Shown here: positions 7,197 through 34,873 of the stretch, piece by piece
Layout: every line of letters starts with the position of its first letter
How positions within the stretch are numbered: position 1 is the stretch's first letter
Origin: Haloglomus litoreum
GTDB lineage: Archaea; Halobacteriota; Halobacteria; Halobacteriales; Haloarculaceae
Reading direction: 5' to 3'
DNA length: 64,000 nucleotides
Assembly (NCBI RefSeq): GCF_029338515.1
Contig: NZ_CP119988.1
Coordinates: forward strand, 2,728,001-2,792,000
Translations under genes and position numbers: made by a program
Notes under the pieces: model-generated
What the model saw: only the letters and a program-made list of their open reading frames with translations
Told to the model about the DNA's origin: nothing
The model's database searches: none

Positions 7197-8087
7197 TCAC
7201 CAGAACTTGAGGTTGTTCTTGACGGCCTCGCGCTTGAGTTCCTGGATGTGCTCGGTGAGCGGGATGTCCTTCGGGCAGACCTCCGTGCAGGAGAACTGGG
7301 TCTGGCACCGCCAGACGCCGTGCTCCTGCTCGATGATCTCCAGCCGCTCCTGCTTGCGGTTCTCGCCCTCGCGGTCGTCCATCGCGAACTTGTAGGCCTT
7401 GTTGATGGCCGCGGGGCCGAGGTACTCGTTGTCCCCGGCGGCGATGTTGCACGAGGACATGCAGGCGCCACACCAGATGCAGCGCGCCGACATCTTGATC
7501 TTCTCCCGGTTCTCGCGGGTCTGACGCTGCTCCTCCAGCTCGCCCGAGGGCAGTTCGTCGGCGTCGAAGTACGGTTCGACCGCGTCCATCTGGTCGTAGA
7601 AGTGCTCCATGTCCACGACGAGGTCCTTGACGACCTCCTGGTGGGGGAGCGGCTCGACGCGGATCTGGCCGGGAACGCCCTCGGAGTCACCGAGGTCGAC
7701 GACCTGCGTCTTGCAGCCCAGGTGCTGGGTCCCGTTGACGAACAGGGCGTCGCTCCCGCAGACGGCCTGCCGGCAGGAGTGCCGGAAGGTGAGCGAGGAG
7801 TCGTAGTGGTCCCGGGCGTACATCAGCGCGTCGAGGACGGTCATCCCCTTCGTGAAGGGGACGGGGAAGGTGTCGAATCGGGGGTCCTCCTTCTCCGGGA
7901 TGTCCGGGTCGTAGCGGAAGACCTTCAGGTCGAACACCGTGTCGGCCCGCTCGAGGTCCGTCTCGGCGCGCTCGCGCATCCGGTCGCGGACCTCCTGGCG
8001 CTCGGCCTTCTCCGCCAGGCGGCGGCGCTGGTGGGTGGACTCCTCTTCGGCCTCGGCCTGCTCCTGTTCGGTGACTTGCGTGCTCAT
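7197..8087 (-). CDS. sdhB: Succinate dehydrogenase iron-sulfur subunit
   Basis: A 296-residue protein carrying the three Fe-S clusters that pass electrons from the flavin to the quinone. The 2Fe-2S ligands are C105, C110, D113 and C125 (CRQAVCGSD; an Asp ligand as in E. coli SdhB). The 4Fe-4S ligands are in CIWCGACMSSC (C203, C206, C209) with C271, and the 3Fe-4S ligands are C213, C261 and C267. A charged N-terminal extension of about 50 residues (EQEQAEAEEE..., then basic helices) precedes the ferredoxin domain and is typical of haloarchaeal SdhB. Its start codon shares one base with the sdhD stop (TAATG). Confidence 0.97.
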   Translation of the reverse strand: MSTQVTEQEQAEAEEESTHQRRRLAEKAERQEVRDRMRERAETDLERADTVFDLKVFRYDPDIPEKEDPRFDTFPVPFTKGMTVLDALMYARDHYDSSLTFRHSCRQAVCGSDALFVNGTQHLGCKTQVVDLGDSEGVPGQIRVEPLPHQEVVKDLVVDMEHFYDQMDAVEPYFDADELPSGELEEQRQTRENREKIKMSARCIWCGACMSSCNIAAGDNEYLGPAAINKAYKFAMDDREGENRKQERLEIIEQEHGVWRCQTQFSCTEVCPKDIPLTEHIQELKREAVKNNLKFW

Positions 8088-8467
8088 TATGCTGCGGGTC
8101 CGATGATGAAGCCGGCCATCGCCATCGCGACGCGGATGCCCTGTGCGATGAGGAGCACGCTCGCGAGGACGAGGCCGTACTTGACGACGGTCTTCGGGGT
8201 GCCGTCGAGCCCCTGGTTGACGAGTGCGTTGTAGACGCCGTTGACGCCGTGGAAGGTGGCGGTCACGAGGAACGCGACCATCGTGAGGAAGTACCCCGGC
8301 TGCTGCATCCGGAGGTGGGTCTGCATGAAGGTGACGTCGGCGGCGTGGTTGACGAAGTGCAGCAGCATGAAGTGGAACGCCAGCACGACGACGAGGAACG
8401 CCGCCGTGAGGCGCTGGAGCAGCCAGCGCGACCCCTTCGGGTCGAACGAGGAGTAGTAGTCTGCCAT
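8087..8467 (-). CDS. sdhD: Succinate dehydrogenase membrane anchor subunit D
   Basis: A 126-residue protein with three membrane segments. It begins MADYYSSFDPKGSRWLLQRLTAAFL, where the SxxRWLLQRLTA pattern is the usual start of these anchors. The His of LAFHFMLLHFVNH lies in the first helix and is a likely heme b ligand, and THLRMQQPGYF and NGVYNAL follow. With SdhC it anchors the complex and forms the quinone site. It lies one base after sdhC and overlaps sdhB by one base, so the three are translationally coupled. Confidence 0.92.
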   Translation of the reverse strand: MADYYSSFDPKGSRWLLQRLTAAFLVVVLAFHFMLLHFVNHAADVTFMQTHLRMQQPGYFLTMVAFLVTATFHGVNGVYNALVNQGLDGTPKTVVKYGLVLASVLLIAQGIRVAMAMAGFIIGPAA

Positions 8468-8468
8468 G

Positions 8469-8861
8469 TTATATCGCCCCCGCGAGGAAGGTCGGGACGC
8501 TCGCCACCACGATGGCCCCCGTGAGGACGAGCGACGCGTAGAAGCTCTTGTCCTGTGCCTCCAGTCCGACGCCGAGGTCGACGAACAGCAGCCGCAGCCC
8601 GTTGAGGATGTGGAAGACGGCGACCGCCAGCAGGCCGACCTCGAGGAACCGGACCACCAGCAGGCTCTCCAGCCCCGAGATGGTGTTCGTGTAGGCCGTC
8701 GTGCCCACCGTGGCGGTGCTCAGCACGGCGATGTGCGTGAACAGGTAGCCGATGAGCACCCACCCGGTGAACTTGTGGAAGATCCAGGCCCACATGCCGG
8801 CGGAGAACTCCCGCCAGCGCCCGAAGTCCTCCACGAGGCCCCGGTCGTACGATTGACTCAT
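8469..8861 (-). CDS. sdhC: Succinate dehydrogenase cytochrome b subunit C
   Basis: A 130-residue membrane protein with three hydrophobic helices, first gene of the sdh operon. Family features are [20 protein letters not shown] near residues 24-43 (HxxTG heme/quinone motif) and the His in [12 protein letters not shown]. It is longer in one open frame, but the protein similarity starts at [16 protein letters not shown], and the ATG at 8859-8861 sits 31 bases after a TATA-like element. It supplies the heme b and quinone part of complex II. Confidence 0.92.
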
Positions 8862-8887
8862 TACGGCACAGCGTGCGAACCGGTCGC

Positions 8888-8896
8888 GTATCAAAG
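8888..8896 (-). promoter_or_regulatory. TATA element of the sdh operon
   Basis: gtatcaaag (CTTTGATAC on the coding strand) is centred 31 bases before the sdhC ATG, in an otherwise GC-rich stretch. The spacing predicts a transcript with a leader of only a few bases. Confidence 0.45.
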
Positions 8897-9010
8897 TTCC
8901 CTTTGCGCGCGGCCGTACCCCCGGGATTCCGCCGGTCACGTGGCGGGGGCTCCGGGGCCCGTGACGAGGCGCCCGGGCAGCCACCAGTCGACATCCGGCC
9001 GTTCGGGGAG

Positions 9011-9685
9011 CTACTCGGCCAGCGGCGCGATGATGTCGCGTGCGGCCTCGAGCTCGTCCCCGTTGACCGTGTGGCCCATCCCCTGGTAGAGGCGCATCTC
9101 CACGTCCGCGCCCATCGACCGGAAGGCATCGCGCGTCGCCTCGACGCGCTCCGCGGGGATGTGGGGGTCGACGTCCGAGCAGCCGAGGAAGACGGGCGTT
9201 CCCTCGAGGTCGCCCGGGTACTCCGCGTCCAGTTCCTCGCCGATAAGGCCCCCGCTGAACGCGATGACCCCGCCGTACCGGCGCGGGTTGCGGGCGGCGT
9301 ACTCGGTGGCGAGACAGCCGCCCTGCGAGAAGCCACCGATGACGACGCGCTCGTGGGGAATGCCCGCGTCGACGGCCCGCTCGACGGCGTCGCCCATCGC
9401 CCGGAGGCCGGACGAGCGCCCGGGTTCGTTCGACTCGACCGGGGCGAGGAACGAGTTGGGGTACCACTCGTTGCGTGCGGCCTGGGGTGCGATGTACGCG
9501 ACGCCCTCGACGCCGATCTCGCCGGCGAGGCCGAGGATGCCCCGCGCGGAGGCCCCGCGACCGTGCGCGAGCACGACGGCAGCTTCGGCCCCCTCGAGGT
9601 CGGCACCCGCGGTCAGGGTCCCCTGGCCCTGGTGCGGACCGATGACACCCTCGCCGGTCAGCCTGTCGCCCGACTCCTCGCTCAT
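9011..9685 (-). CDS. Phospholipase/carboxylesterase family alpha/beta hydrolase
   Basis: A 224-residue alpha/beta hydrolase. The nucleophile Ser is in [10 protein letters not shown], the acid is probably the Asp of [10 protein letters not shown], and the His is in [27 protein letters not shown] near residue 35 forms the oxyanion region. The length and motifs match the PLPC/FSH carboxylesterase group (about 200-230 residues), which hydrolyses short esters or lysophospholipids. It is divergent from the HxlR regulator across 107 bases, so that regulator may control it; this is inference from position only. Confidence 0.85.
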
Positions 9686-9749
9686 CGACCGCCCTCCGCG
9701 GGTGGCTCGTACAGTAGTATCATTCCGTCACCTGAGTTCAGTCCCGAAC

Positions 9750-9758
9750 TTACTTATA
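9750..9758 (+). promoter_or_regulatory. TATA element for the HxlR regulator gene
   Basis: ttacttata is preceded by cgaac, a plausible BRE. Its centre predicts transcription starting about 9781, two bases before the in-frame GTG at 9784 and twelve before the ATG at 9793. A short palindrome ACCG-ttt-CGGT lies downstream at about 9771-9781 and might be an autoregulatory site, but four base pairs are weak evidence. Confidence 0.5.
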
Positions 9759-9792
9759 CGTTCCCTGACAACCGTTTCGGTAGGTGACATCC

Positions 9793-10182
9793 ATGTCCTC
9801 TGGTGCAGACACTCCGGGTTCGGAGACCGACGTGGGCGAGGACGGCCCCTGCGCCGTCGTCGACTCGCTGGAACAGATCGGCTCGCAGTGGCGCCTCATC
9901 GTCCTCCACGACCTGCAGGACGGCGAGAAGCGGTTCAACGAGCTGAAGCGGTCGACCGACGCCTCCTCGCGGACGCTCTCGCGGGTGCTCGACGATCTGC
10001 AGGAGATGGGCTTCGTCGACCGTCGGATGGAGGAGGACGCCCCCGTCGCGACCTACTACTCGCTGACGGCGAAGGGGACCTCGCTCTGCCCGGTGTTCGA
10101 CGAGATCGAGCGCTGGGCCGACGAGTGGCTCCACGCGCCATCGGGCGACGCCGAGGAGCTCCCGGCGGAGTCGGCCGACTGA
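9793..10182 (+). CDS. HxlR-family winged-helix transcription regulator
   Basis: A 129-residue HxlR/DUF24-type regulator. The core includes GPCAVVDSLEQIGSQWRLIV with the conserved N-terminal Cys, then KRFNELKRS, the recognition helix SSRTLSRVLDDLQEMG and the wing YYSLTAKG. Members sense thiol or electrophile stress or other cues and often control the divergent gene. ATG 9793 is chosen; the leaderless GTG at 9784 would add three residues (MTS). The next gene starts three bases after its stop, so the LOG protein is probably in the same operon. Confidence 0.9.
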   Translation: MSSGADTPGSETDVGEDGPCAVVDSLEQIGSQWRLIVLHDLQDGEKRFNELKRSTDASSRTLSRVLDDLQEMGFVDRRMEEDAPVATYYSLTAKGTSLCPVFDEIERWADEWLHAPSGDAEELPAESAD

Positions 10183-10185
10183 CCC

Positions 10186-10764
10186 GTGGAGCGCATCTGT
10201 GTCTACTGCGGCTCCAGCCCCGGCCACGACCCGGCCTACCGGCGAGCCGCACGCGAGATGGGCGAGGAACTCCTGGCACGCGACCTCGGCCTGGTCTTCG
10301 GTGGCGGCAGCGTCGGGCTGATGGGGACCGTCGCGGACGCCGTGATGGACGGCGGCGGGGAGGCCATCGGCGTCATCCCCGAGTCGCTGGAGTCGAAGGA
10401 GGTCGCCCACGGCGGCCTCACCGACCTCGAGGTCGTCGAGTCGATGCACGAGCGCAAACAGCGGATGGTCGAGCTCTCGGACGGGTTCGTCGCGCTCCCC
10501 GGCGGTCTGGGGACGCTCGAGGAGATCTTCGAGGTGCTGACGTGGGCCCAGCTCGGCATCCACGAGAAACCCTGTGGCGTGCTCAACGTCGCCGGGTTCT
10601 ACGACGGACTCGTCTCGCATCTCGACGGCGCCACCGAGGCGGGCTTCGTCTCGCCCACACACCGGGACCTGGCACGCGTCGAGACCCACCCCGGCGCGCT
10701 GCTGGACGCCTTCGCGGCGTACGAGCCACCCTCGGAACCGAAGGTCGGCCCGGAGGACACGTAG
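10186..10764 (+). CDS. LOG-family protein (TIGR00730-type nucleotide phosphoribohydrolase)
   Basis: A 192-residue Rossmann-like protein starting at GTG (MERICVYCGSSPGHDPAY). It has the two family motifs GGGSVGLMG and PGGLGTLEEIFE near residue 107. LOG enzymes release ribose 5-phosphate from nucleoside monophosphates; in plants this activates cytokinins, and in prokaryotes the substrate is often AMP or a modified nucleotide. 'Lysine decarboxylase' is an old misannotation of this family. It follows the HxlR gene by three bases. Confidence 0.9.
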   Translation: MERICVYCGSSPGHDPAYRRAAREMGEELLARDLGLVFGGGSVGLMGTVADAVMDGGGEAIGVIPESLESKEVAHGGLTDLEVVESMHERKQRMVELSDGFVALPGGLGTLEEIFEVLTWAQLGIHEKPCGVLNVAGFYDGLVSHLDGATEAGFVSPTHRDLARVETHPGALLDAFAAYEPPSEPKVGPEDT

Positions 10765-10846
10765 CGCGGGCCCGGCGAGTGTCGCGACGCTCCCCGTGGC
10801 CCGGGTCGGGGAAAGGCTATTGTGCGACCCAACGGAGGGCGACCGT

Positions 10847-11086
10847 ATGGACGACCCCTTCGAGTCGCGAGCGGAGCGCGAGGGCTACCTCCTGTGGGCC
10901 CTGCACGCGGTCTCGCAGACCGGGCCGGCGACGGTCATGCAGGTGAGCACCCACATCCAGGACTCGCCCGCGACCATCGATCCCGTCGAGGCCGAGAAGC
11001 TCCGGGAAGCCGTCAAGCAGCTCGAGTACGAGGGCCTGGTGTTCATCGACCAGGACGATCGGGCCCACGTCGCCGACGTCGACTGA
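10847..11086 (+). CDS. Small helical protein, possible winged-helix fold
   Basis: A 79-residue acidic protein. The pattern ALHAVSQTGPATVMQVSTHI, then VEAEKLREAVKQLEYEGLVF, then IDQDDRAHVADVD looks like the helix-helix-wing arrangement of a small winged-helix domain, with EYEGLVFIDQDD as the wing. There is no family I can name. It follows the LOG gene by 82 bases on the same strand. ATG 10847 (MDDPFESRAEREG) is preferred over longer frames, which are arginine-rich shadows. Confidence 0.75.
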   Translation: MDDPFESRAEREGYLLWALHAVSQTGPATVMQVSTHIQDSPATIDPVEAEKLREAVKQLEYEGLVFIDQDDRAHVADVD

Positions 11087-11128
11087 CGAACGCCGGGTGG
11101 TGGTAGTCGCCGACTCCTATCGACCGCT

Positions 11129-20197: not shown

Positions 20198-21397
20198 ATG
20201 GGAATCGGGACAGCGACGGCCCGGCTGCGCGGCGGCGGCCGGGGGTGGGTGCTCCTCACCATCGCTGTCGGGTGGGTGTTCGTCCTCGGCGGGCGCTTCC
20301 TGGTCCCCGCGGTCCTCCCCCAGGTGACGGGCACCTTCGCGGTCGGGAACACGGGCGGCGGCATCGCCGTCACGGTCATCTGGGGGACGTACGCCCTGAT
20401 GCAGTCACCGGCGGGTATCCTGGTCGACCGCCTGGGCGAGCGCCGGCTCCTGACGGGGAGCCTCCTGCTGTCGGCGGGGAGCGTCGTCGTCCTGGGCGTG
20501 GCGCCCGCGTACCTCGCGTTCCTCGGTGGGTGTGCGGCGTTCGGGTTCGCGACGGGCCTGTACGGCCCCGGGCGCGGCACCGCGCTCGCGCGGACCTTCC
20601 CCGACGACGACGGCACGGCCATCGGCGTCACGCTCGCGGCCGGCTCCGTCGGGTCGGCCGTCCTGCCGTTCCTGGCGGGCGCGCTCGTCGGGAGCGTGAG
20701 CTGGCGCTACGTCGTCGCGGGGCTCGCGCCACCGCTGCTCGTGGCGGCCGCCTTCGCCTGGCGGACCGTCCCGGAACACGACCGGCAGCACACGAGCAGC
20801 CCGCCGCCGGCCGACGAGCTGGTCGGCGACGTCCTCCGGGCCGTCCGGCGCCGGGGGGTCGCCGTCGCCGTCGCCGCGGTCACGCTGATGCTGTTCGCCT
20901 TCCAGGGCCTCTCTGCGTTCTACGTCACCTACCTGGCACGGTCGATGCCCCAGCGGACGGCGGCGGGCCTGTTCGCGCTCCTGTTCCTCGGGGGAGCGGT
21001 CGCACAGCTCGCAGGGGGTGCCGCGGCGGACCGCTACGGCGAGCGCGTCGTCCTGACCGTCACGGCCGCCGTCGGCGCCGTCTCGGTCGGGGCGGTCCCG
21101 TTCGTCGACGGGGTGTGGCCGCTCGCGGCGCTCTCGATCGCCCTCGGGACGCGGCTGGCCATCGCCCCCGTCTCGAACGCCTACGTCATCGCCGTCCTCC
21201 CGGACGCCGTCACGGGAACCGCCTGGGGGACGCTCCGGACGGCGTTCTTCCTGCTGGGCGCGACCGGCTCGACGGTGGTCGGCGCGATGGCCGACCGGGG
21301 GCTGTTCGACGAGGCGTTCCTCCTGCTGGCCGCCGTGACGGCCGCCGCGGCGGTGCTGTACGCCTTCCTGCCGTCGCGGGAAGCGGTCGGGGCGTGA
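20198..21397 (+). CDS. MFS transporter, possible partner of the FGGY kinase
   Basis: A 399-residue membrane protein with about twelve segments and the MFS loop motif GILVDRLGERRLLTG between segments 2 and 3. The first half is very Gly/Ala-rich. Substrate is not readable. It is convergent with the sugar kinase gene (stop codons 37 bases apart) and lies near the RuBisCO-like gene, so uptake of a sugar or sugar acid is possible; this is position-based inference. Confidence 0.88.
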   Translation: MGIGTATARLRGGGRGWVLLTIAVGWVFVLGGRFLVPAVLPQVTGTFAVGNTGGGIAVTVIWGTYALMQSPAGILVDRLGERRLLTGSLLLSAGSVVVLGVAPAYLAFLGGCAAFGFATGLYGPGRGTALARTFPDDDGTAIGVTLAAGSVGSAVLPFLAGALVGSVSWRYVVAGLAPPLLVAAAFAWRTVPEHDRQHTSSPPPADELVGDVLRAVRRRGVAVAVAAVTLMLFAFQGLSAFYVTYLARSMPQRTAAGLFALLFLGGAVAQLAGGAAADRYGERVVLTVTAAVGAVSVGAVPFVDGVWPLAALSIALGTRLAIAPVSNAYVIAVLPDAVTGTAWGTLRTAFFLLGATGSTVVGAMADRGLFDEAFLLLAAVTAAAAVLYAFLPSREAVGA

Positions 21398-21434
21398 GTG
21401 TGGCCCGAGGCGCCCGAGTGGAACCGGGGGCGGC

Positions 21435-22940
21435 TCACCCCCTGTAGAGGCCCCGGGCCGCCCGCCATCGTTCCCCGAACCGCTGGCGCGCCGCCGCGTA
21501 CGTCTCGGGGTCGCACGAGGGCTCGACCGTCCCGACGACCCGGCAGAGTGCGTCGCGTGCGTCGTCGACGGTCCCGTAGACGCCCGCGTCCAGCGCGGCC
21601 GGGAGGACGGCCCCGGCGGTGGTCCGGGGCGCCATGCGCGTGACCGGGCGGTCCCACGCGGCGGCCCGGAGGCCGTTCCACCAGTCGTAGTCCCCCACTC
21701 CAGGGTCGTCGGTCCCGGAGTGGTCCGGCTCCACACCGTCGGGCGCGCCGCCCCCGAGCAGCCGGACGGCACCGGCACCGCCCGCGTCGAGGAACCAGCC
21801 CTCCGCGAGCGCGACGCCGAGCGCGACACCGCGGAACAGGCGGCCGCGCGCAACCCCCGGGTCGGCATCCGTCCAGAGCCCCGCCAGCGTGTTCGCCATC
21901 CGCCCGTCGTCGAACGGGGAGCGGTCCCCCTGCGGGAGGAAGCCGTACTCCGTGCCGGGGTCGGCGGCGGCCGCGGCGTCGAGCGCGGCCGCCGGGGAGC
22001 GGTCGAACAGGCGCGCCAGCCACCGGAACGTCGCGCCCGAGTCGAAAGCGGCCCCGGCGAGCCAGCCGTCCAGCGGGTGTCGGTGGTAGTAGAACGGGCC
22101 GTCGCCCGCGCGGGTCTCGGTGACGCCCTTGACGACGCTCGTCGAGCCACAGGTGACACCCCAGTCCCCGGGTTCCAGACAGCCCATCCCGAGCGCGGCG
22201 GCGTTGCCGTCCGTCACGCCGAGGTGGAGGCTCGCCCCCTCGAGACCCATCCGGCTGGCCAAGGGTCCGGCCGCGGTGCCGACGTGGTCGCCCGGAGCCG
22301 CGATATCAGGGAGACGGTCGGTCGACACGTCGGCCGCGGCGAACAGGTCGTCGAGCCACGAGGGCGCCCCGGCCACGTCGGCACCGAACTTCAGCGCGTT
22401 CGTCCAGTCGGTCGTCGGGGCCCACGCCTCGCCCGCGGGGGCGAGCAGCCGCCAGGTGAGCCACGTCGCCGCCGGGAGGTACCACCGCGCCTCGCCGTAC
22501 GCCGGCCGGTCCTCGCGGGCGCTCGCCAGTGTCGGGAGCGGGGCCGTCGCACCGACGGGCACGCCGAGGTCGCTCGCCCGGTCGGCGGCGTCGGCCGCGG
22601 CGAACGCCGCCGCCGTGTCGGGGTCGGCACGCTCGTCGTACCGGAGTGGCGGCGCCACCGGCTCCCCGGCGTCGTCGGTCGCGACCACGGTCCCCGAGGT
22701 GGAGGTGACGGCGACGACGTGGTCCCCGTCGGGGATGTCGGGGGCCGCAGCCGCGAGGGCGTGCTCCCAGTCGGTGGTCGTCTCCCCTTCCAGCGGCGCC
22801 TCGCCCGAGGCGACGAGGTCGCCCGCGCGGTCGTAGGCAGCGACGCGGGCGCCGGAGCTGCCGAGGTCGATGCCGACGAGCACCGGGTCGTCCGTGGGAC
22901 CGTCGGGCGGATCCCCGGACGTGTCGTGTAGCGAGGTCAT
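21435..22940 (-). CDS. FGGY-family carbohydrate kinase
   Basis: A 501-residue ATP-dependent sugar kinase. The phosphate-binding N-terminus is VGIDLGSSGARVAAYD (residues 22-37). The catalytic base is D244 in GVTDGNAAALG, and the second ATPase motif is GDWGVTCGSTSVVKG (258-272). A C-terminal ATP motif is AVRLLGGGAPDG. The group includes xylulokinase, gluconokinase and related pentitol kinases; the phosphorylated sugar is not determined. It is transcribed divergently from the operon that encodes the RuBisCO-like protein, sharing a 142-base gap, which suggests a common pathway. Confidence 0.9.
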   Translation of the reverse strand: MTSLHDTSGDPPDGPTDDPVLVGIDLGSSGARVAAYDRAGDLVASGEAPLEGETTTDWEHALAAAAPDIPDGDHVVAVTSTSGTVVATDDAGEPVAPPLRYDERADPDTAAAFAAADAADRASDLGVPVGATAPLPTLASAREDRPAYGEARWYLPAATWLTWRLLAPAGEAWAPTTDWTNALKFGADVAGAPSWLDDLFAAADVSTDRLPDIAAPGDHVGTAAGPLASRMGLEGASLHLGVTDGNAAALGMGCLEPGDWGVTCGSTSVVKGVTETRAGDGPFYYHRHPLDGWLAGAAFDSGATFRWLARLFDRSPAAALDAAAAADPGTEYGFLPQGDRSPFDDGRMANTLAGLWTDADPGVARGRLFRGVALGVALAEGWFLDAGGAGAVRLLGGGAPDGVEPDHSGTDDPGVGDYDWWNGLRAAAWDRPVTRMAPRTTAGAVLPAALDAGVYGTVDDARDALCRVVGTVEPSCDPETYAAARQRFGERWRAARGLYRG

Positions 22941-23082
22941 GCGGACCCGGGCGGGCGCCAGCCACCTCGGCGTTTCGCCTCGCCGGGACGGTGGCGGCGT
23001 CCCGGACGACCGCCGGACCCCGGGGTGGTCGGCCGCTGCCGGGTCCTGAGGGTTTTAGCCGCCGGGCGCACAGCCACGCTGT

Positions 23083-23598
23083 ATGCTGGGTTCGGACATA
23101 CTGACGGCGTCCCTGCCGGCGCTCATCGGGACGCTCGGCGGGGTGGTGGTCGGGCAACTGCTGACGGCCAGCCGGGAGCGACGAAGGCAGGCACAGGCGC
23201 GGGAGCGCCGCCGCCAGGACGCCCGGACCGCCATCGCGGCGGAACTGGCGTCCGTCCGCGAGTACCTGCGGGACGCCGACTACGACGACCCGGACGACCA
23301 CCCGACCTACCCGACGGCGGCGTTCGACAGCAGCGTCGCGAGCGGCGACTTCGCGCTGCTGGACGGCGGGACACGCCGGGAGATCTCGACGGCGTACGGT
23401 CTCGTCGAGCGGGTCCGCGAGGCCGAGGACAGCCTCGTCCGGGCGCGGGCGGAGGGCAACGCCGACGAGTTCCTCCGACGGCGCTACGGGGACCACAAGC
23501 GCTCGCTCGTCGAGCACCTCGACGGGTTCGTCGAGGAGCTCGAGACGGCCGAGACCGCGGCCGACGGCACCGCCGAGCCGACGGGGGTGGTCGGATGA
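23083..23598 (+). CDS. N-terminal membrane anchor with Arg-rich coiled coil
   Basis: A 171-residue protein with one membrane segment (ILTASLPALIGTLGGVVVGQ, about residues 6-26) followed by a long basic helix (SRERRRQAQARERRRQDART) and more helices with a charged pattern. The end is acidic. The family is unknown. Its stop codon overlaps the start of the RuBisCO-like gene (ATGA), so the two are co-translated and may work together, for example as a membrane anchor or assembly factor. That role is speculation from the coupling. Confidence 0.75.
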   Translation: MLGSDILTASLPALIGTLGGVVVGQLLTASRERRRQAQARERRRQDARTAIAAELASVREYLRDADYDDPDDHPTYPTAAFDSSVASGDFALLDGGTRREISTAYGLVERVREAEDSLVRARAEGNADEFLRRRYGDHKRSLVEHLDGFVEELETAETAADGTAEPTGVVG

Positions 23599-24893
23599 CC
23601 GACTACATCGACGTGACCTACAGCGTCGAACTCACGGCGGACCCCGACATCCGCGCGCAGGACAGCATGCCCGACGACCTGCTGGAGATGGGTGAGATCA
23701 TCGCCCAGGAGCAGTCCGTCGGCGGCTACGACAAGCCCTTCCATCGGGACTTCGACGTCGAGCCCTACCGGGCGCGAGCCACACCGAACCCCTCGACCGG
23801 GTCGGTCACGGTCCGGTTCCCCACCGACAACATCGCCCCGGAGCCGGCGCACCTGCTGAACTACGTCGCCGGCGACGTGTTCGGCTCGAAGTACGTCGAG
23901 CACATCCGCGTCACGGACATCAGCTTCCCGAAGCCGTTCGTCGACCGGTTCCCCGGTCCGCGGTTCGGGCAGGCCGGCATCCGTGAGCGGGTCGACCGGG
24001 AGGGGCCGCTGCTGGGGATGATCCTGAAGCCGTCGCTGGGGCTCACGCCCGAACGCATCGGGGACCTCGTGCGGGCGGCGGCGCAACCGGGCGCCCACCT
24101 CGACGACGAACCGGACGACCTCGGCGGCGTCGACATCGTGAAGGAGGACGAGAAGCTGACGGACCCCGACTACTGCGCGTTCGAGGACCGGCTGGACGAG
24201 GTGGTCGCGGCCCTGCGCGACGTCCCGGAGCCGCCGCTGTACGTGCTCAACGTCACCGCCCGCGAGGACGCCTTCCGCGAGTACGTCGCGGGCCACGACC
24301 TCGAGGACGTGCTTGACCGCTTCGTCCTGCTGGTGACGGTCATCTCCCACGGGTTCGGCCGGATGCAGACCCTCGCCGAGGACGACACCCTCGGCCTCCC
24401 GACGTACGCCCACCGCGCGGGGCACGCGGCGCTCACCCGGACGGCCCACGGCATCGAGATGCGCGTCCTCGAGCAGCTCTCGCGGCTCGCTGGCGCCGAC
24501 TTCGCCCACTGCGGCGCCATCGCCGGCAACCACCGCCGCGACCGCGCCGAGGTGGTGACGAACCGGCGCGTCCTCGACACCACCACGCCGCCCTGGGACG
24601 GTCTCGAACCCTGCCTCCCGGTGGTCTCGGGCGGCGTCGACCCGACGAACATCAAGGAGAACATGGAGGCGGTCGGCGAGCGCGACCACCAGGAGCAGCT
24701 CGTGTTCATGATCGGCTCGGGCATCTACGGCCACAGCGGCGGCACGCTCCCCGGTATCGCCGCCGGCGTCCGCGCCAACCGCGAGGCCATCGACGCCGCC
24801 CGGGAGGGCCTCGGCCACGGCGACATCGAGACGCGGGTCCACCACGACTACCCCCACATGGAGGCGTGGCTGGAGGCCGACCGCGAGGACTGA
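23595..24893 (+). CDS. RuBisCO-like protein (form IV type)
   Basis: A 432-residue protein with the RuBisCO large-subunit fold. Aligned by eye to form III RuBisCO, several catalytic residues remain: E39 (E60 in the spinach enzyme), K145 (K175), the carbamylation site K183 with D185 and E186 (K201, D203, E204), H273 and H277 (H294, H298), H305 (H327), S345 (S379) and the phosphate-binding glycines in GSGIYGHSGG. Others are lost: the loop-6 lysine K334 is N312 (AIAGNHRRD instead of GKLEG), K177 is S147 (KPSLG) and N123 is D94. This makes CO2 fixation unlikely and suggests an enolase, isomerase or decarboxylase on a sugar phosphate. Its neighbours are a divergent sugar kinase and a transporter. 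Confidence 0.9.
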   Translation: MTDYIDVTYSVELTADPDIRAQDSMPDDLLEMGEIIAQEQSVGGYDKPFHRDFDVEPYRARATPNPSTGSVTVRFPTDNIAPEPAHLLNYVAGDVFGSKYVEHIRVTDISFPKPFVDRFPGPRFGQAGIRERVDREGPLLGMILKPSLGLTPERIGDLVRAAAQPGAHLDDEPDDLGGVDIVKEDEKLTDPDYCAFEDRLDEVVAALRDVPEPPLYVLNVTAREDAFREYVAGHDLEDVLDRFVLLVTVISHGFGRMQTLAEDDTLGLPTYAHRAGHAALTRTAHGIEMRVLEQLSRLAGADFAHCGAIAGNHRRDRAEVVTNRRVLDTTTPPWDGLEPCLPVVSGGVDPTNIKENMEAVGERDHQEQLVFMIGSGIYGHSGGTLPGIAAGVRANREAIDAAREGLGHGDIETRVHHDYPHMEAWLEADRED

Positions 24894-25040
24894 CGGACCC
24901 GGCCGTAGAAAGGCCGTCCCCCGACGATACGGCGAATGACGGGTCGTTCATGTATCTCCGGAATCGGTCATAAGTCTCCCCAGTAATCCGGGCGTCAGGT
25001 CCGTACTCGTCAACCCGGTAGGGGGAGGTGGTGTCACACG

Positions 25041-29909: not shown

Positions 29910-31490
29910 ATGACCGACGCCACCGAACGACTCGCCGTGACCGCGGGCCGGGACGGCGAACGGCGACTGCGCGCGGCACGCGAGGCGGCCCCCGAGGGCG
30001 TGGTGGTCGTCCCCGTCGGGTCGACGGGCGTGCCGGCCCTGGAGCCGCTGGCGCTGGCGACCCGCGACGGCGAGACGGCCATCCACGCGACCGCCGACGC
30101 CGAGCGGTGCGCGGAGATCGCGACCGAGTTCGACGGCGGTCGGCCGCACCTCCACGCGCACGCCGTCGTCGAGCACGAACCCGGGACGGACCGGCTGCCG
30201 ACCCCCGAGGAGGGGCCCCTCTCCGTCGGGCGGCGGCGCGTCCTCGGTCCCTGTGGCTGGACGCGGATCGACGATTTCGGGCCCGAGCGCCAGCCCTCGC
30301 TGCCGGCGGACCCCGGGGCGGTTCTCGGCCACGCCGAGCGCGTGGGGCTGCTCGGCCGCGGGCGTGGCGACGCCGCGCGCGACCGGCCCGTCGCCGAGGA
30401 CTGGCGGACCGCCCGCGACACCGAGGGCGATACCGTCGTCGTGGTGAACGGCAACGAGGCCGACGCGGCCGTCGCCGGGGACGAGTTGCTCCTCGCCTCG
30501 GCGCCGGCACACGTCCTCGCCGGCGCGTTCGCGGCCGCCAGGGTCGTCGACGCCCGGGACGTGGTGGTGTACGTCGGCGAGCACGACGACGACGCGGCCG
30601 AGCGGACCGCAGCGGCGGCCGACGCGCTCGCGCCCGAGGACGTGAGCGTGCAGGTGGTCACCGGGCCGGACACCTTCACGGCCGGCGAGCCGACCATGGC
30701 GCTGGAGGCACTGGAGGGGTCGGACCGCATCGAGGCCCGTCGCCGCCCTCCGGGGCCGGCCGAGTGGGGCCTGTACGGCCGGCCCACGGTGGTCCACACG
30801 CCGCGGACGCTGGCGCAACTGGTCGCTCTGCTCCGGGCGCCCGACGCCTTCGACACCGACGCGGGCGACCCCGGGACGCGGGTCGTGACGGCCACACCGC
30901 GCGGCCCCGGCGGTGACGCCGTCGCGCCCCCGGCGACGGTCGAACTCCCGACGGGCACATCGGTCGGGCGGGCGCTGGACGCGCTGGGCGCGCCCGACAG
31001 CGAGGACTCCCGCGACTTCCGACCGGACTGGGCCGTCGTCGGCGGGCGGTTCGGCGGCCTGCGGCGCGACCTCGACGTGCCCGCTGGCGCCCCGGCGCTC
31101 CTGGCGGCCGACTGCGGGACGGCGGGTGCCGTCGAGTCGTTCGCGGATGCGTGCGCCCTCGCGGCGGTCGGGCGCCGCGCGGCGTTCGCGCGCGAGGCGA
31201 ACTGCGGGCGCTGTGTGCCGTGTCGCGAGGGCTCGAAACAGCTACACGAGGGCCTTCGGGCGGTCTACGACGGCGACCACGACGAGGCCGGGCTGCGCGA
31301 ACTCCTCCGAGCCATGGGCGAGACGAGCCTCTGTGCGTTCGGTCGGGAGGCCGCACGGCCGGTCCGGACGGCACTGGACCGGTTCGCCGGTACGGTCCGG
31401 GCGCACGCCGACGGCGACTGCTCGGCCGGCGAATGCGATGACGGACCGCGTGACGAGGCCACCGAGGGGCCCGGAGGTGTCTGGGCGTGA
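29910..31490 (+). CDS. NuoF-like iron-sulfur subunit of formate dehydrogenase
   Basis: A 526-residue protein matching NuoF/FdhB in its C-terminus: the cluster ligands C432, C435 and C438 (NCGRCVPCREG) plus C475 (SLCAFGREA) form the N3 4Fe-4S site. The middle aligns with NuoF (TAGEPTMALEALEG, then GLYGRPTVVHTPRTL). The flavin/NADH parts are altered: GRGGAGFPTG is GRGRGDAARD at 150-159 and NADEGEPGT is NGNEADAA at 180-187. The first 110 residues may be a worn NuoE-like thioredoxin part. Its stop overlaps the GTG of the catalytic subunit (GTGA). Confidence 0.82.
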   Translation: MTDATERLAVTAGRDGERRLRAAREAAPEGVVVVPVGSTGVPALEPLALATRDGETAIHATADAERCAEIATEFDGGRPHLHAHAVVEHEPGTDRLPTPEEGPLSVGRRRVLGPCGWTRIDDFGPERQPSLPADPGAVLGHAERVGLLGRGRGDAARDRPVAEDWRTARDTEGDTVVVVNGNEADAAVAGDELLLASAPAHVLAGAFAAARVVDARDVVVYVGEHDDDAAERTAAAADALAPEDVSVQVVTGPDTFTAGEPTMALEALEGSDRIEARRRPPGPAEWGLYGRPTVVHTPRTLAQLVALLRAPDAFDTDAGDPGTRVVTATPRGPGGDAVAPPATVELPTGTSVGRALDALGAPDSEDSRDFRPDWAVVGGRFGGLRRDLDVPAGAPALLAADCGTAGAVESFADACALAAVGRRAAFAREANCGRCVPCREGSKQLHEGLRAVYDGDHDEAGLRELLRAMGETSLCAFGREAARPVRTALDRFAGTVRAHADGDCSAGECDDGPRDEATEGPGGVWA

Positions 31491-34400
31491 GCGCCGACGG
31501 CCAGCCGGACGACGGGGAAGCGGCCGACGGCGAGCGGGCACCCGACGGGCCCGACGAGGGCTTCCCGCGCGTCCCCGACCTGACGGACCCACGGCCCTCG
31601 ACGCCGCTGACGGAGGACTTCCGCACCGGAACGGCCAACGACCCGCCGCGGTACTCGGCGCGCGGCGCCGACCCGGACGACGGGATGGTGACCGTCACGG
31701 TCGACGGCGAGGCCGTGGCGGTCCCGGAGGGTGCGACCCTCCTCGATGCGGTCGAGGCCGCCGACGCGGGCGACGAGGTCCCGGCACTATGCCACTACGA
31801 CCGCGACACCGAGGCCGCCGAGGAGATCGGCCCGCGGACGACCTGCCGGACCTGCGTGGTGGAGACCGACGAGGGACTCGTACCCTCGTGTAGCCACCCC
31901 GCCGAGGACGGCGCGACCATCGGGACCGACACCCCGGACGCGGCCGAGGCGCGCTCGGTCAATCTCGACCTCGTCCTCTCGAACCACAACCTCCGCTGTA
32001 CGACCTGCGGGAAGAACGGGCGCTGCGAACTGCAGGACGCGGCCATCGAGGCCGACGTCGAGCACCCACGCTACGGCGTCATGGACGACCGCGGCGAGTA
32101 CGAACCCATCGACGACACCTCCGGCGTCATCCAGATCGACCGCAACAAGTGCATCCTCTGCAACCGTTGCGTCGAGGCCTGCAACGACGTGCAGGTCGAG
32201 GGCGTCCTGCGCGTCGAGGGCGGGGGCGCGGAGCGCCCCCAGGCGAGCGGCGAAGCCGCGAGCAAGGACGAGGACGGCGAGCCACGCATCGGCTTCATGA
32301 GCCAGGCCGAGACGATGGCTGACTCGACCTGCGTCTCCTGTGGCCACTGCGCGACGGTCTGCCCGACCGGCTCGCTCGTCGAGAGCGACTACACCGACGC
32401 GACCACCCTGCCGATTCCGGGCTTCACGCAGAAGAACTCGGTCGGCGAGGTGCTGGAGGCCGAGCCCGTGGCGACCGCCGACCGGCCGGACGCGGGCGGC
32501 GGGATGGGCGGTGACGGAGCGGCCGCGGCCATCGACGAGGACCTGTCCGGCGTCGCCCGGTTCATGGCGAAGGCGAAACGGAAGGCCCGGCAGGCCGCCC
32601 GGAGCGCGGGCGAGCGAGCCTTCCTCGAGGGCGAACACGCCGCCGAGGCCGTCGCCGCGAGGACCCTTTCCGAGGGGCGACTGTTCGACATCGCCAGCGG
32701 CGTGGCCCGGTGGCGCTCGCGCGACATCGAGACGACCGAGACGACCTGCGGTTACTGCGCGGTGGGCTGTCGCTTCGAGGTCCACAGCAAGGACGACGAC
32801 ATCAAGGCCGTCCGGCCGACCGACCCGGACCACGCGCCGGCCAACGACTTCTCGACCTGCGTCAAGGGGAAGTTCGGCTACGAGTTCGTCGGCAGCGACG
32901 ACCGCCTCACGTCGCCACTGGTACGCGACGAGGAGGCCGGCCCCGACACGCCCGGTCCGGACGGGTTCCGGGCGGTCTCGTGGGAGACGGCCATCGAGCG
33001 CGTGGCCGACGGCCTCCGCGACATCAAGCGCGAGCACGGGCCCGAGGCCCTGTCGGCGTTCGCCTCCTCGAAGTGCACCAACGAGGAGGATTACCTGCTC
33101 CAGAAGTTCGCCCGGGCGGTACTGAAGACGCCGAACGTCGACAACTGCGCGCGGCTCTGTCACTCCTCGACGGTCGCGGCGCTCCTCCAGACGGTCGGCT
33201 ACGGCGCGATGAGCAACTCCATCGACGACGTGGCGAACACGGACTGCTACCTCATCACCGGGTCGAACACGACCGAGTCGCACCCGGTGCTGGCCACTCG
33301 CATCAAGCGGAACGTCCGCGACGGCGCGACGCTCCACGTCTACGACCCGCGGAGGACCGGCATCGCCGAGCACGCAGACCAGTACACCCGCACCCGGCCT
33401 GGCTACGACATCGCGTGGCTCAACGGCCTCACCCGCTACGTCATCGAGAACGACCTCTACGACGACGTGTTCGTCGACGAGCACGTCCGGAACTTCGAGG
33501 CGCTGCGCGAGAAGGTCGACCCGTTCACGCCCGCGGAGGTCGAACGGCTGGCGGGCGTCCCGCCAGAGGAGCTGGCCGAGACGGCCACGGCCATCGCCGC
33601 GGCCGACACCTGCGTCTTCGGCTGGGCGATGGGCCTGACCCAGCACGGCCACGGCACCCGGAACGTCCTCGCGGTCGCGAACCTCGCGCTCGTCACGGGC
33701 CACGTCGGGAAGCGCAACGCCGGCCTGAGCCCGTTCCGCGGCCACAACAACGTCCAGGGCGGGGGCGGCGACATGGGAACGCTCCCGAACAAGCTGCCGG
33801 GCTACCGGGACCCCACGGACCCCGAGGTGGCCGACGAGTTCGAGCGGGTGTGGGGCACCCGCCCGCCCGAGGCGGTCGGCCTGAAGGTGACCGAGACGTT
33901 CAGCGCCATCCACGAGGGCGACGTGAAGGGGCTGTACGTGATGGGCGAGAACCCCGCCCTCTCCGAGCCCGACATCCAGCACGCCGAGGAGGGGCTCTCG
34001 GAACTCGACTTCCTCGTCGTGCAGGACGTGTTCCTCACGGAGACGGCCGAGCACGCCGACGTGGTGCTGCCAGCGGCGTCGTTCGCCGAGAAGGACGGCA
34101 CCTTCACGAACACGGAACGGCGGGTCCAGCTGGTCGGTGAGGCCGTCTCCCCGCCGGGCGACGCGAAGCCCGACTGGCAGATTCTCCAGGTACTCGCGAG
34201 AGAGCTCGGACACGGCTGGGAGTACGAATCAACAGCCGAGATCATGGACGAGATAGCCGAGGTCGCGCCCATCTACGGCGGCATCTCGCACGACCGGCTC
34301 GACGCCGAGGGCGGCCTCCAGTGGCCCTGCACCGGCGAGACCGACCCCGGCACGCGCTTCCTCTACGAGGACGGCTTCAACTTCGAGGATGGGAAGGCCC

Positions 34401-34873
34401 GCTTCGTTCCCGCCGACATGGGCCGGCCCGGCGAGTTGCCGGACGAGGAGTACCCGCTCACGCTCACCACGGGCCGCGTGATGTACCACTTCCACACCGG
34501 CACGCTCACCCGGCGCGTGGAGGGCATCATGCGCCACGTGGGCGAGTCGTTCGTCGAGATCAACCCCACCACCGCGGAGACGCTCGGTATCGAGGACGGC
34601 GACGCCGTCCGCGTCGCCTCCCGCCGCGGCGACATCACCGTCCGCGCGCAGGTGACCGACCGCGTCGGCGAGGGTGTCGTCTTCGTCCCGATGCACTTCG
34701 CCGAAGGGGCGGCCAACGTCCTCACCGACGAGACGTACGACCCCACGAGTGGGATTCCGGAGTACAAGGTCGCGAGCGTCCGCGTCGAGCCGACCGAGGG
34801 CGCCACGAGCGTCGACGACCTCGCCCCCGACCGGCCGGAGGGTGCGACCGACGAGGCGACCGGCGACGACTGA
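31487..34873 (+). CDS. fdhF: Formate dehydrogenase catalytic subunit with NuoG-like Fe-S domain
   Basis: A 1128-residue molybdopterin oxidoreductase starting at GTG. Cofactor sites in order: 2Fe-2S C102, C120, C123, C135; H167 with C171, C174 and C180 (4Fe-4S); two ferredoxin-type clusters C222/C225/C228/C232 and C282/C285/C288/C292; then the catalytic-domain 4Fe-4S C421, C424, C428, C458. The metal ligand is C558 in DNCARLCHSSTV, so this is the Cys, not Sec, version. Two inserts are unusual: 244-267 between ferredoxin motifs and a basic Ala-rich linker at about 330-410. It oxidises formate to CO2 in the cytosol, since no Tat signal is present. Confidence 0.94.
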   Translation: MSADGQPDDGEAADGERAPDGPDEGFPRVPDLTDPRPSTPLTEDFRTGTANDPPRYSARGADPDDGMVTVTVDGEAVAVPEGATLLDAVEAADAGDEVPALCHYDRDTEAAEEIGPRTTCRTCVVETDEGLVPSCSHPAEDGATIGTDTPDAAEARSVNLDLVLSNHNLRCTTCGKNGRCELQDAAIEADVEHPRYGVMDDRGEYEPIDDTSGVIQIDRNKCILCNRCVEACNDVQVEGVLRVEGGGAERPQASGEAASKDEDGEPRIGFMSQAETMADSTCVSCGHCATVCPTGSLVESDYTDATTLPIPGFTQKNSVGEVLEAEPVATADRPDAGGGMGGDGAAAAIDEDLSGVARFMAKAKRKARQAARSAGERAFLEGEHAAEAVAARTLSEGRLFDIASGVARWRSRDIETTETTCGYCAVGCRFEVHSKDDDIKAVRPTDPDHAPANDFSTCVKGKFGYEFVGSDDRLTSPLVRDEEAGPDTPGPDGFRAVSWETAIERVADGLRDIKREHGPEALSAFASSKCTNEEDYLLQKFARAVLKTPNVDNCARLCHSSTVAALLQTVGYGAMSNSIDDVANTDCYLITGSNTTESHPVLATRIKRNVRDGATLHVYDPRRTGIAEHADQYTRTRPGYDIAWLNGLTRYVIENDLYDDVFVDEHVRNFEALREKVDPFTPAEVERLAGVPPEELAETATAIAAADTCVFGWAMGLTQHGHGTRNVLAVANLALVTGHVGKRNAGLSPFRGHNNVQGGGGDMGTLPNKLPGYRDPTDPEVADEFERVWGTRPPEAVGLKVTETFSAIHEGDVKGLYVMGENPALSEPDIQHAEEGLSELDFLVVQDVFLTETAEHADVVLPAASFAEKDGTFTNTERRVQLVGEAVSPPGDAKPDWQILQVLARELGHGWEYESTAEIMDEIAEVAPIYGGISHDRLDAEGGLQWPCTGETDPGTRFLYEDGFNFEDGKARFVPADMGRPGELPDEEYPLTLTTGRVMYHFHTGTLTRRVEGIMRHVGESFVEINPTTAETLGIEDGDAVRVASRRGDITVRAQVTDRVGEGVVFVPMHFAEGAANVLTDETYDPTSGIPEYKVASVRVEPTEGATSVDDLAPDRPEGATDEATGDD

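Follow-up and report, generated by a model that had tools for sequence, protein, structure and literature searches.

The 64,000-nucleotide stretch of the Haloglomus litoreum genome analysed here (the window) encodes a RuBisCO-like protein, RLPx, which belongs to a new, rare and patchily distributed lineage of the RuBisCO superfamily. The preferred reading, with a probability of about 0.5, is that RLPx and a small membrane-anchored protein form a working pair, that the pair moves between haloarchaea as an accessory module, and that RLPx does not fix CO2. RLPx is probably a repurposed RuBisCO with a selected function, because key catalytic residues have been lost and it is inherited together with this membrane-anchored protein rather than with the adjacent kinase and transporter. 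The features of the window that bear on this reading are as follows.

20198–21397, forward strand: MFS transporter gene (MFS_1, E 1.2e-38, Pfam), a conserved gene of the genus and independent of RLPx
21404–24898, unstranded: accessory block of FGGY kinase, partner and RLPx genes; three congeners lack it in its entirety but have conserved flanks
21435–22940, reverse strand: divergent FGGY-type kinase gene (FGGY_N, E 2.6e-7, Pfam), head to head with the partner/RLPx operon and outside the conserved unit
23053–23057, forward strand: TTTTA, a possible TATA box read from the sequence, about 28 nt 5′ of the partner ATG
23083–23598, forward strand: partner gene (171 aa), the first gene of the two-gene unit; each of the four RLPx genes is immediately preceded by a homologue
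23595–24893, forward strand: RLPx gene (432 aa; ATG at 23595, stop codon at 24891–24893), characterised by Pfam, structure model, tree and residue table

RLPx is a full-length RuBisCO-family protein

The RLPx reading frame encodes a real, full-length member of the RuBisCO family. Both Pfam domains score above their cut-offs (RuBisCO_large, E 1e-35; RuBisCO_large_N, E 2e-4), and the AlphaFold2 model has the complete two-domain fold of the large subunit (pLDDT 89, pTM 0.90). The best PDB matches of this model in Foldseek are archaeal type III RuBisCOs (3wqp, TM 0.77). Membership of the superfamily is therefore supported by Pfam, AlphaFold2 and Foldseek alike. No second RuBisCO homologue was found beside RLPx in the H. 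litoreum genome. The lack of a RuBisCO would not make H. litoreum unusual, because haloarchaea without the enzyme can use a non-carboxylating pentose bisphosphate route (PMC9700705).

Distribution and phylogenetic position

The searches yielded four RLPx proteins from three haloarchaeal genera. Two of the proteins are nearly identical, and the reading frame is intact in all four genomes. Close homologues occur in 3 of 391 haloarchaeal genomes, namely H. litoreum (G000), G173 (58% identical) and Natronomonas sp. CBA1123 (G252; 44%), the last of which was the only close relative in an RLPx scan of genome contigs. The fourth RLPx is found in G637, which is also a Natronomonas. The other RuBisCO matches in the 391 genomes look like ordinary form III, and a separate form III gene is present in G252 as well. 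RLPx is carried by 1 of 12 genomes in the genus of G173, 2 of 20 in the genus of G252 and 3 of 146 in the family of H. litoreum. A 295-genome sample of the phylum contained no additional RLPx, and nothing was found in searches of viral contigs and phages.

The preliminary description of this DNA had proposed placing the protein in a RuBisCO-superfamily tree. In a tree of 45 sequences, without form II, MtnW or several of the form IV groups, RLPx forms a clade with support of 100/100 and a long stem (1.38). Neither the form I/III clade (94/71) nor the OiaX-type sugar-acid group includes it. A forced position beside haloarchaeal form III and form I is not rejected in this tree (AU p 0.34), and a forced position within the OiaX-type group gives an AU p of 0.073. 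In a 32-row tree, RLPx joins the OiaX-type group weakly (90/86), and its placement beside haloarchaeal form III has a p of 0.042. RLPx is a deep, separate clade with a provisional deeper position, and it may belong beside haloarchaeal form III.

Active-site residues

Residues were compared in an alignment of RLPx with 35 relatives, and spinach numbering is given in brackets. The residues listed in the preliminary description (K145, S147, K183-x-D-E, H273/H277, H305, S345, N312 and D94) were all confirmed by this alignment and the resulting residue table. The window RLPx retains K145 (K175), K183 (K201), D185 (D203), E186 (E204), H273 (H294), H277 (H298), H305 (H327) and S345 (S379). It has S147 in place of K177, N312 in place of the loop-6 lysine (K334) and D94 in place of N123, while G44 and Y45 replace T65 and W66, and S375 replaces G403. 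The loop-6 Lys334 of catalytic RuBisCO (forms I, II and III) is thus Asn in the window and Ser or Asp in the other RLPx proteins, and N123, K177, T65 and W66, which also mark the catalytic forms, are all substituted in the window. RLPx therefore fits the definition of a RuBisCO-like protein (form IV in the broad sense), that is, a RuBisCO homologue in which catalytic residues are missing.

Common to all four RLPx proteins are K175, K201, D203, H294, H298, H327 and S379. Lost from all four are K334 (N/S/D), N123 (D), T65 (G/N), W66 (Y) and G403 (S), and these substitutions were seen in none of the form I/III sequences compared. A further five residues, E60, E204, R295, G380 and G381, are kept in the window RLPx and in G173 and lost in both Natronomonas proteins. 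The carbamylated lysine and the Asp and Glu metal ligands are accordingly complete in the window RLPx and G173, and E204 is Ile in both Natronomonas copies. Between these two copies dN is 0.012 and dS is 0.116 (dN/dS about 0.10), and because dN is far below dS, the gene is kept by purifying selection despite its broken metal site.

In established RuBisCO chemistry, the residues that RLPx lacks serve to place CO2 and loop 6 correctly and to hold one of the two phosphates. Judged from the sequences, CO2 fixation by RLPx is therefore very unlikely, and much of one phosphate-binding half-site is gone. To this extent there is support for the preliminary view, in which a RuBisCO-like protein with a largely intact metal site but no loop-6 lysine would not fix CO2.

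The partner gene upstream of RLPx

The gene at 23083–23598 was missed in the preliminary description. Its product carries the motif YPTAAFDSSVASGDFALLD and consists of an N-terminal membrane helix (about residues 6–24; hydropathy peak 1.84) followed by a long helix and a helical hairpin, and its AlphaFold2 model is all helical (pLDDT 79). An N-terminal hydrophobic or membrane helix is present in all three partner sequences tested, and 24 positions are invariant among three aligned partners. No Pfam family was found for the partner, its fold has no match in the PDB below E 0.14, and nothing was found when viral contigs and plasmids were searched for it. The stop codon of the partner overlaps the start codon of RLPx (ATGA) in the window, and the gene pairs in the other loci are located as follows.

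Locus L032: partner 7427–7981, RLPx 7990–9276
Locus L033, reverse strand: partner 10643–11119, RLPx 9381–10646
Locus L133, reverse strand: partner about 9945–10421, RLPx 8683–9948

At the junction, the stop and start codons overlap by 4 bases in the window, L033 and L133, whereas in L032 the genes stand 8 bases apart. The two genes keep the same order and share a strand in all four loci of three genera, and their other neighbours are unrelated. Among the 391 haloarchaeal genomes, strong matches to the partner profile occur only in the three that carry RLPx, so that the co-occurrence of the two genes is perfect in this set. The two Natronomonas partners are identical as proteins (dN 0, dS 0.12). 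A TTTTA element also lies 5′ of the partner gene in L033, and its placement in the window would fit a leaderless haloarchaeal transcript of the partner–RLPx unit.

With a wider partner profile, the matches extended to a broad family of membrane-anchored haloarchaeal proteins and to coiled coils. Such loosely partner-like proteins are common in haloarchaea and are not confined to defence islands. Because the partner belongs to this broad, loosely similar family, its identity tells little of its function. A broad family of short, membrane-anchored haloarchaeal proteins (L106–L129) has a motif like YESxAxxLGLLxxxEIxxxVxFYS, with no convincing Pfam match in those scanned. One distant partner-like membrane-anchored protein is encoded between the BREX gene brxC and the Kiwa genes kwaB/kwaA (L085, 6288–6920), and other distant homologues are found near transposase or DUF499-like ATPase genes.

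The adjacent kinase and transporter genes

The identities and positions given for the FGGY kinase and MFS transporter genes in the preliminary description were confirmed by Pfam. The pathway built on them, in which uptake and phosphorylation precede a step by the RuBisCO-like protein, is not supported. The window kinase has no match in the whole genomes of the RLPx-bearing G173 and G252 (E < 0.001), and it does not adjoin RLPx at the G637 locus, so that the conserved kinase–RLPx linkage, on which the preliminary description made its pathway depend, is largely absent. The MFS gene is found at 81–85% DNA identity in three congeners (G389, G658 and G659), all of which lack RLPx and the kinase block.

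The genes to the right of RLPx, a small ORF and a lipase gene, are likewise conserved in the three congeners (loci L146, L147 and L148). In G389 the two flanks are joined with about 35 bases between them, and in G658 and G659 a different membrane-protein gene of about 206 codons takes the place of the ~3.5-kb block. Since the whole stretch is absent from congeners in which its flanks are conserved, the kinase gene and the RLPx pair form an accessory block at a variable site. The kinase gene is oriented head to head with the partner/RLPx operon at a distance of 142 bp, and the block that holds both is missing as a whole from the congeners. For this reason they may have been acquired together locally. 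Farther along the window (29910–34873) are adjacent genes resembling a NuoF-like subunit and a large subunit of the formate-dehydrogenase type.

The closest relative of the window kinase (45% identical, G240) is encoded directly after a class II (FucA-like) aldolase gene (L081, 6983–9152), which suggests a ketose kinase–aldolase route for this family. The kinase family is present in 7 other haloarchaea of 242 searched, none of which has RLPx. Aldolases (class II or DeoC/LacD) and IclR regulators are among its neighbours in the four loci examined. The kinase and transporter beside RLPx are probably bystanders. The informative neighbour of RLPx is probably the small, unannotated partner gene, and this corrects the reading that would follow automatically from the kinase and transporter next door.

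Possible functions of the partner–RLPx pair

The best-fitting role for RLPx is that of a membrane-tethered protein that binds a phosphorylated ligand, whether or not it also carries out altered chemistry. The partner, a putative tether, would hold the RuBisCO-fold RLPx on the cytoplasmic side of the membrane. A phosphorylated small molecule would be bound by the half-site that all four proteins retain (K175, K201, D203, H294, H298, H327 and S379). In H. litoreum and G173, with K201/D203/E204 intact, metal-dependent enolisation or decarboxylation-type chemistry would be possible. The Natronomonas proteins have lost E204, R295 and E60 yet are under selection, and for them ligand binding or altered chemistry would more likely be the conserved job. 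Neither an adjacent kinase nor an MFS transporter would be needed, and the pair is probably mobile between haloarchaea. A more speculative form of this proposal, held only tentatively and on balance rather doubtful, is that a mobile two-gene module has recruited the RuBisCO fold as a sensor or effector tethered to the membrane, which binds a phosphorylated metabolite without the classical catalysis of the superfamily, perhaps in defence or stress signalling.

RLPx could instead be a membrane-associated metabolic enzyme whose retained metal site acts on some phosphorylated substrate; the Natronomonas copies would then have taken on a related function by drift. This is possible, if somewhat unlikely: K201, D203, E204, H294, R295, H298, H327 and S379 are all present in the window RLPx and G173, but the Natronomonas gene is under purifying selection without E204, R295, E60 and G380/G381, and no metabolic gene neighbour is conserved. 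The small size, patchy distribution and apparent mobility of the two-gene unit, with its unrelated neighbours, would also suit a defence or abortive-response module in which a membrane-anchored sensor or tether works with a protein of the RuBisCO fold, the latter sensing or altering a phosphorylated metabolite. The distant partner homologues beside BREX and Kiwa genes and near transposase or DUF499-like ATPase genes point the same way. Because the wider profile draws in so broad a family, however, the defence-island setting of three of these homologues was not counted for RLPx, and the distant partner family is widespread beyond such islands. Neither RLPx nor the window partner has a PADLOC match up to E 1, none of the four RLPx loci has recognised defence genes alongside, and no paper in the literature searched ties RuBisCO-like proteins to anti-phage defence or to an archaeal membrane coiled-coil partner. 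A defence role is thus unlikely.

In the pathway of the preliminary description, a sugar or sugar acid would enter through the MFS protein and be phosphorylated by the FGGY kinase, and RLPx would isomerise, decarboxylate or transcarboxylate what the kinase makes. This pathway draws on the head-to-head arrangement within one block absent from congeners, on FGGY kinase–RLP clusters on Natronococcus and Vibrio plasmids, and on the Ser at K177, which is shared with most of the OiaX-type sugar-acid group. It is nevertheless improbable, given the absence of the kinase from G173 and G252, the MFS gene in three congeners without RLPx, the aldolases beside the kinase family elsewhere, the identity of only about 23% between the window kinase and the RLP-linked FGGY kinases, and the retention by the OiaX-type group of the loop-6 lysine that RLPx has lost. 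That RLPx is a functionless, decaying form III RuBisCO can hardly be credited. The solved structures and profiles that match it best belong to form III or to RuBisCO in general, and many catalytic residues are lost, but the frames are intact in four genomes, dN/dS is about 0.1, dN of the partner is 0, the clade is deep and separate, and Natronomonas G252 has a form III gene besides.

Comparison with known RuBisCO-superfamily proteins

Archaeal form III RuBisCO (haloarchaeal/Thermococcus type) resembles RLPx in the whole fold, with about 30–33% identity over the full alignment, and the window RLPx shares with it the carbamylated lysine and metal ligands, H294/H298/H327 and S379. RLPx differs in that the loop-6 lysine, K177, N123, T65, W66 and G403 are replaced, in its pairing with a membrane protein, and in its tentative position, taken from the best tree, outside the clade of forms I and III. 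Its score against the form III equivalog TIGR03326 is 187 bits (cut-off 497), and profile scores also speak against form II.

The known roles of RuBisCO-like proteins include methionine salvage and the decarboxylation or transcarboxylation of 3-oxo-isoapionate-4-phosphate (PMC6302742). OiaX-type proteins, the 3-oxo-isoapionate-4-phosphate decarboxylase/transcarboxylase group, resemble RLPx in having KPS in place of KPK and in retaining the metal site, and some are also haloarchaeal (Natronococcus and Halalkalicoccus plasmids). Unlike RLPx, they keep the loop-6 lysine and mostly N123, and have W or F at H298. They mostly adjoin genes for four-carbon acid sugar kinases, a domain found in none of the scanned genes flanking the window RLPx and recognised in none of the ORF lists of the other RLPx loci. 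RLPx scores 135 bits against the OiaX model NF042437 (cut-off 700).

On a plasmid of Natronococcus sp. CG52 (L093, 5349–9242), genes for a class II aldolase, an FGGY kinase, an NAD(P)-dependent oxidoreductase and an OiaX-clade RLP are clustered, with a four-carbon acid sugar kinase gene nearby. This cluster is likely to represent a real haloarchaeal sugar-acid pathway. The preliminary description knew of no haloarchaeal pathway linking exactly the kinase, RLP and MFS gene types; this cluster shows that an FGGY kinase and an RLP are linked in at least one haloarchaeal system, with an RLP of a different clade. On a Vibrio nigripulchritudo plasmid (L153, 1–3900), a split transketolase, an RLP and an FGGY kinase are encoded in a row, and transketolase–RLP pairs are also found in L154 and L156. 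The RLPs of the Natronococcus and Vibrio clusters belong to clades other than RLPx, and the window kinase shares only about 23% identity with the FGGY kinases encoded there.

The transketolase-linked RLPs (Vibrio, Pararhizobium and strain NT-25) are like RLPx in lacking the loop-6 lysine, and one adjoins an FGGY kinase gene, but they form a distant clade, have lost H298, H327 and S379, and have transketolase genes as neighbours. MtnW (2,3-diketo-5-methylthiopentyl-1-phosphate enolase) shares with RLPx the RuBisCO fold and is likewise a non-carboxylating RuBisCO-like protein, but RLPx has no methionine-salvage neighbours. Against the two MtnW models, TIGR03332 and NF007095, RLPx scores 109 and 131 bits (cut-offs 514 and 409). 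To our knowledge, RuBisCO-like proteins with an established function are metabolic enzymes. The RuBisCO fold would be put to a new use in a lineage that always occurs with a membrane-anchored partner and is under selection after partial loss of its metal site.
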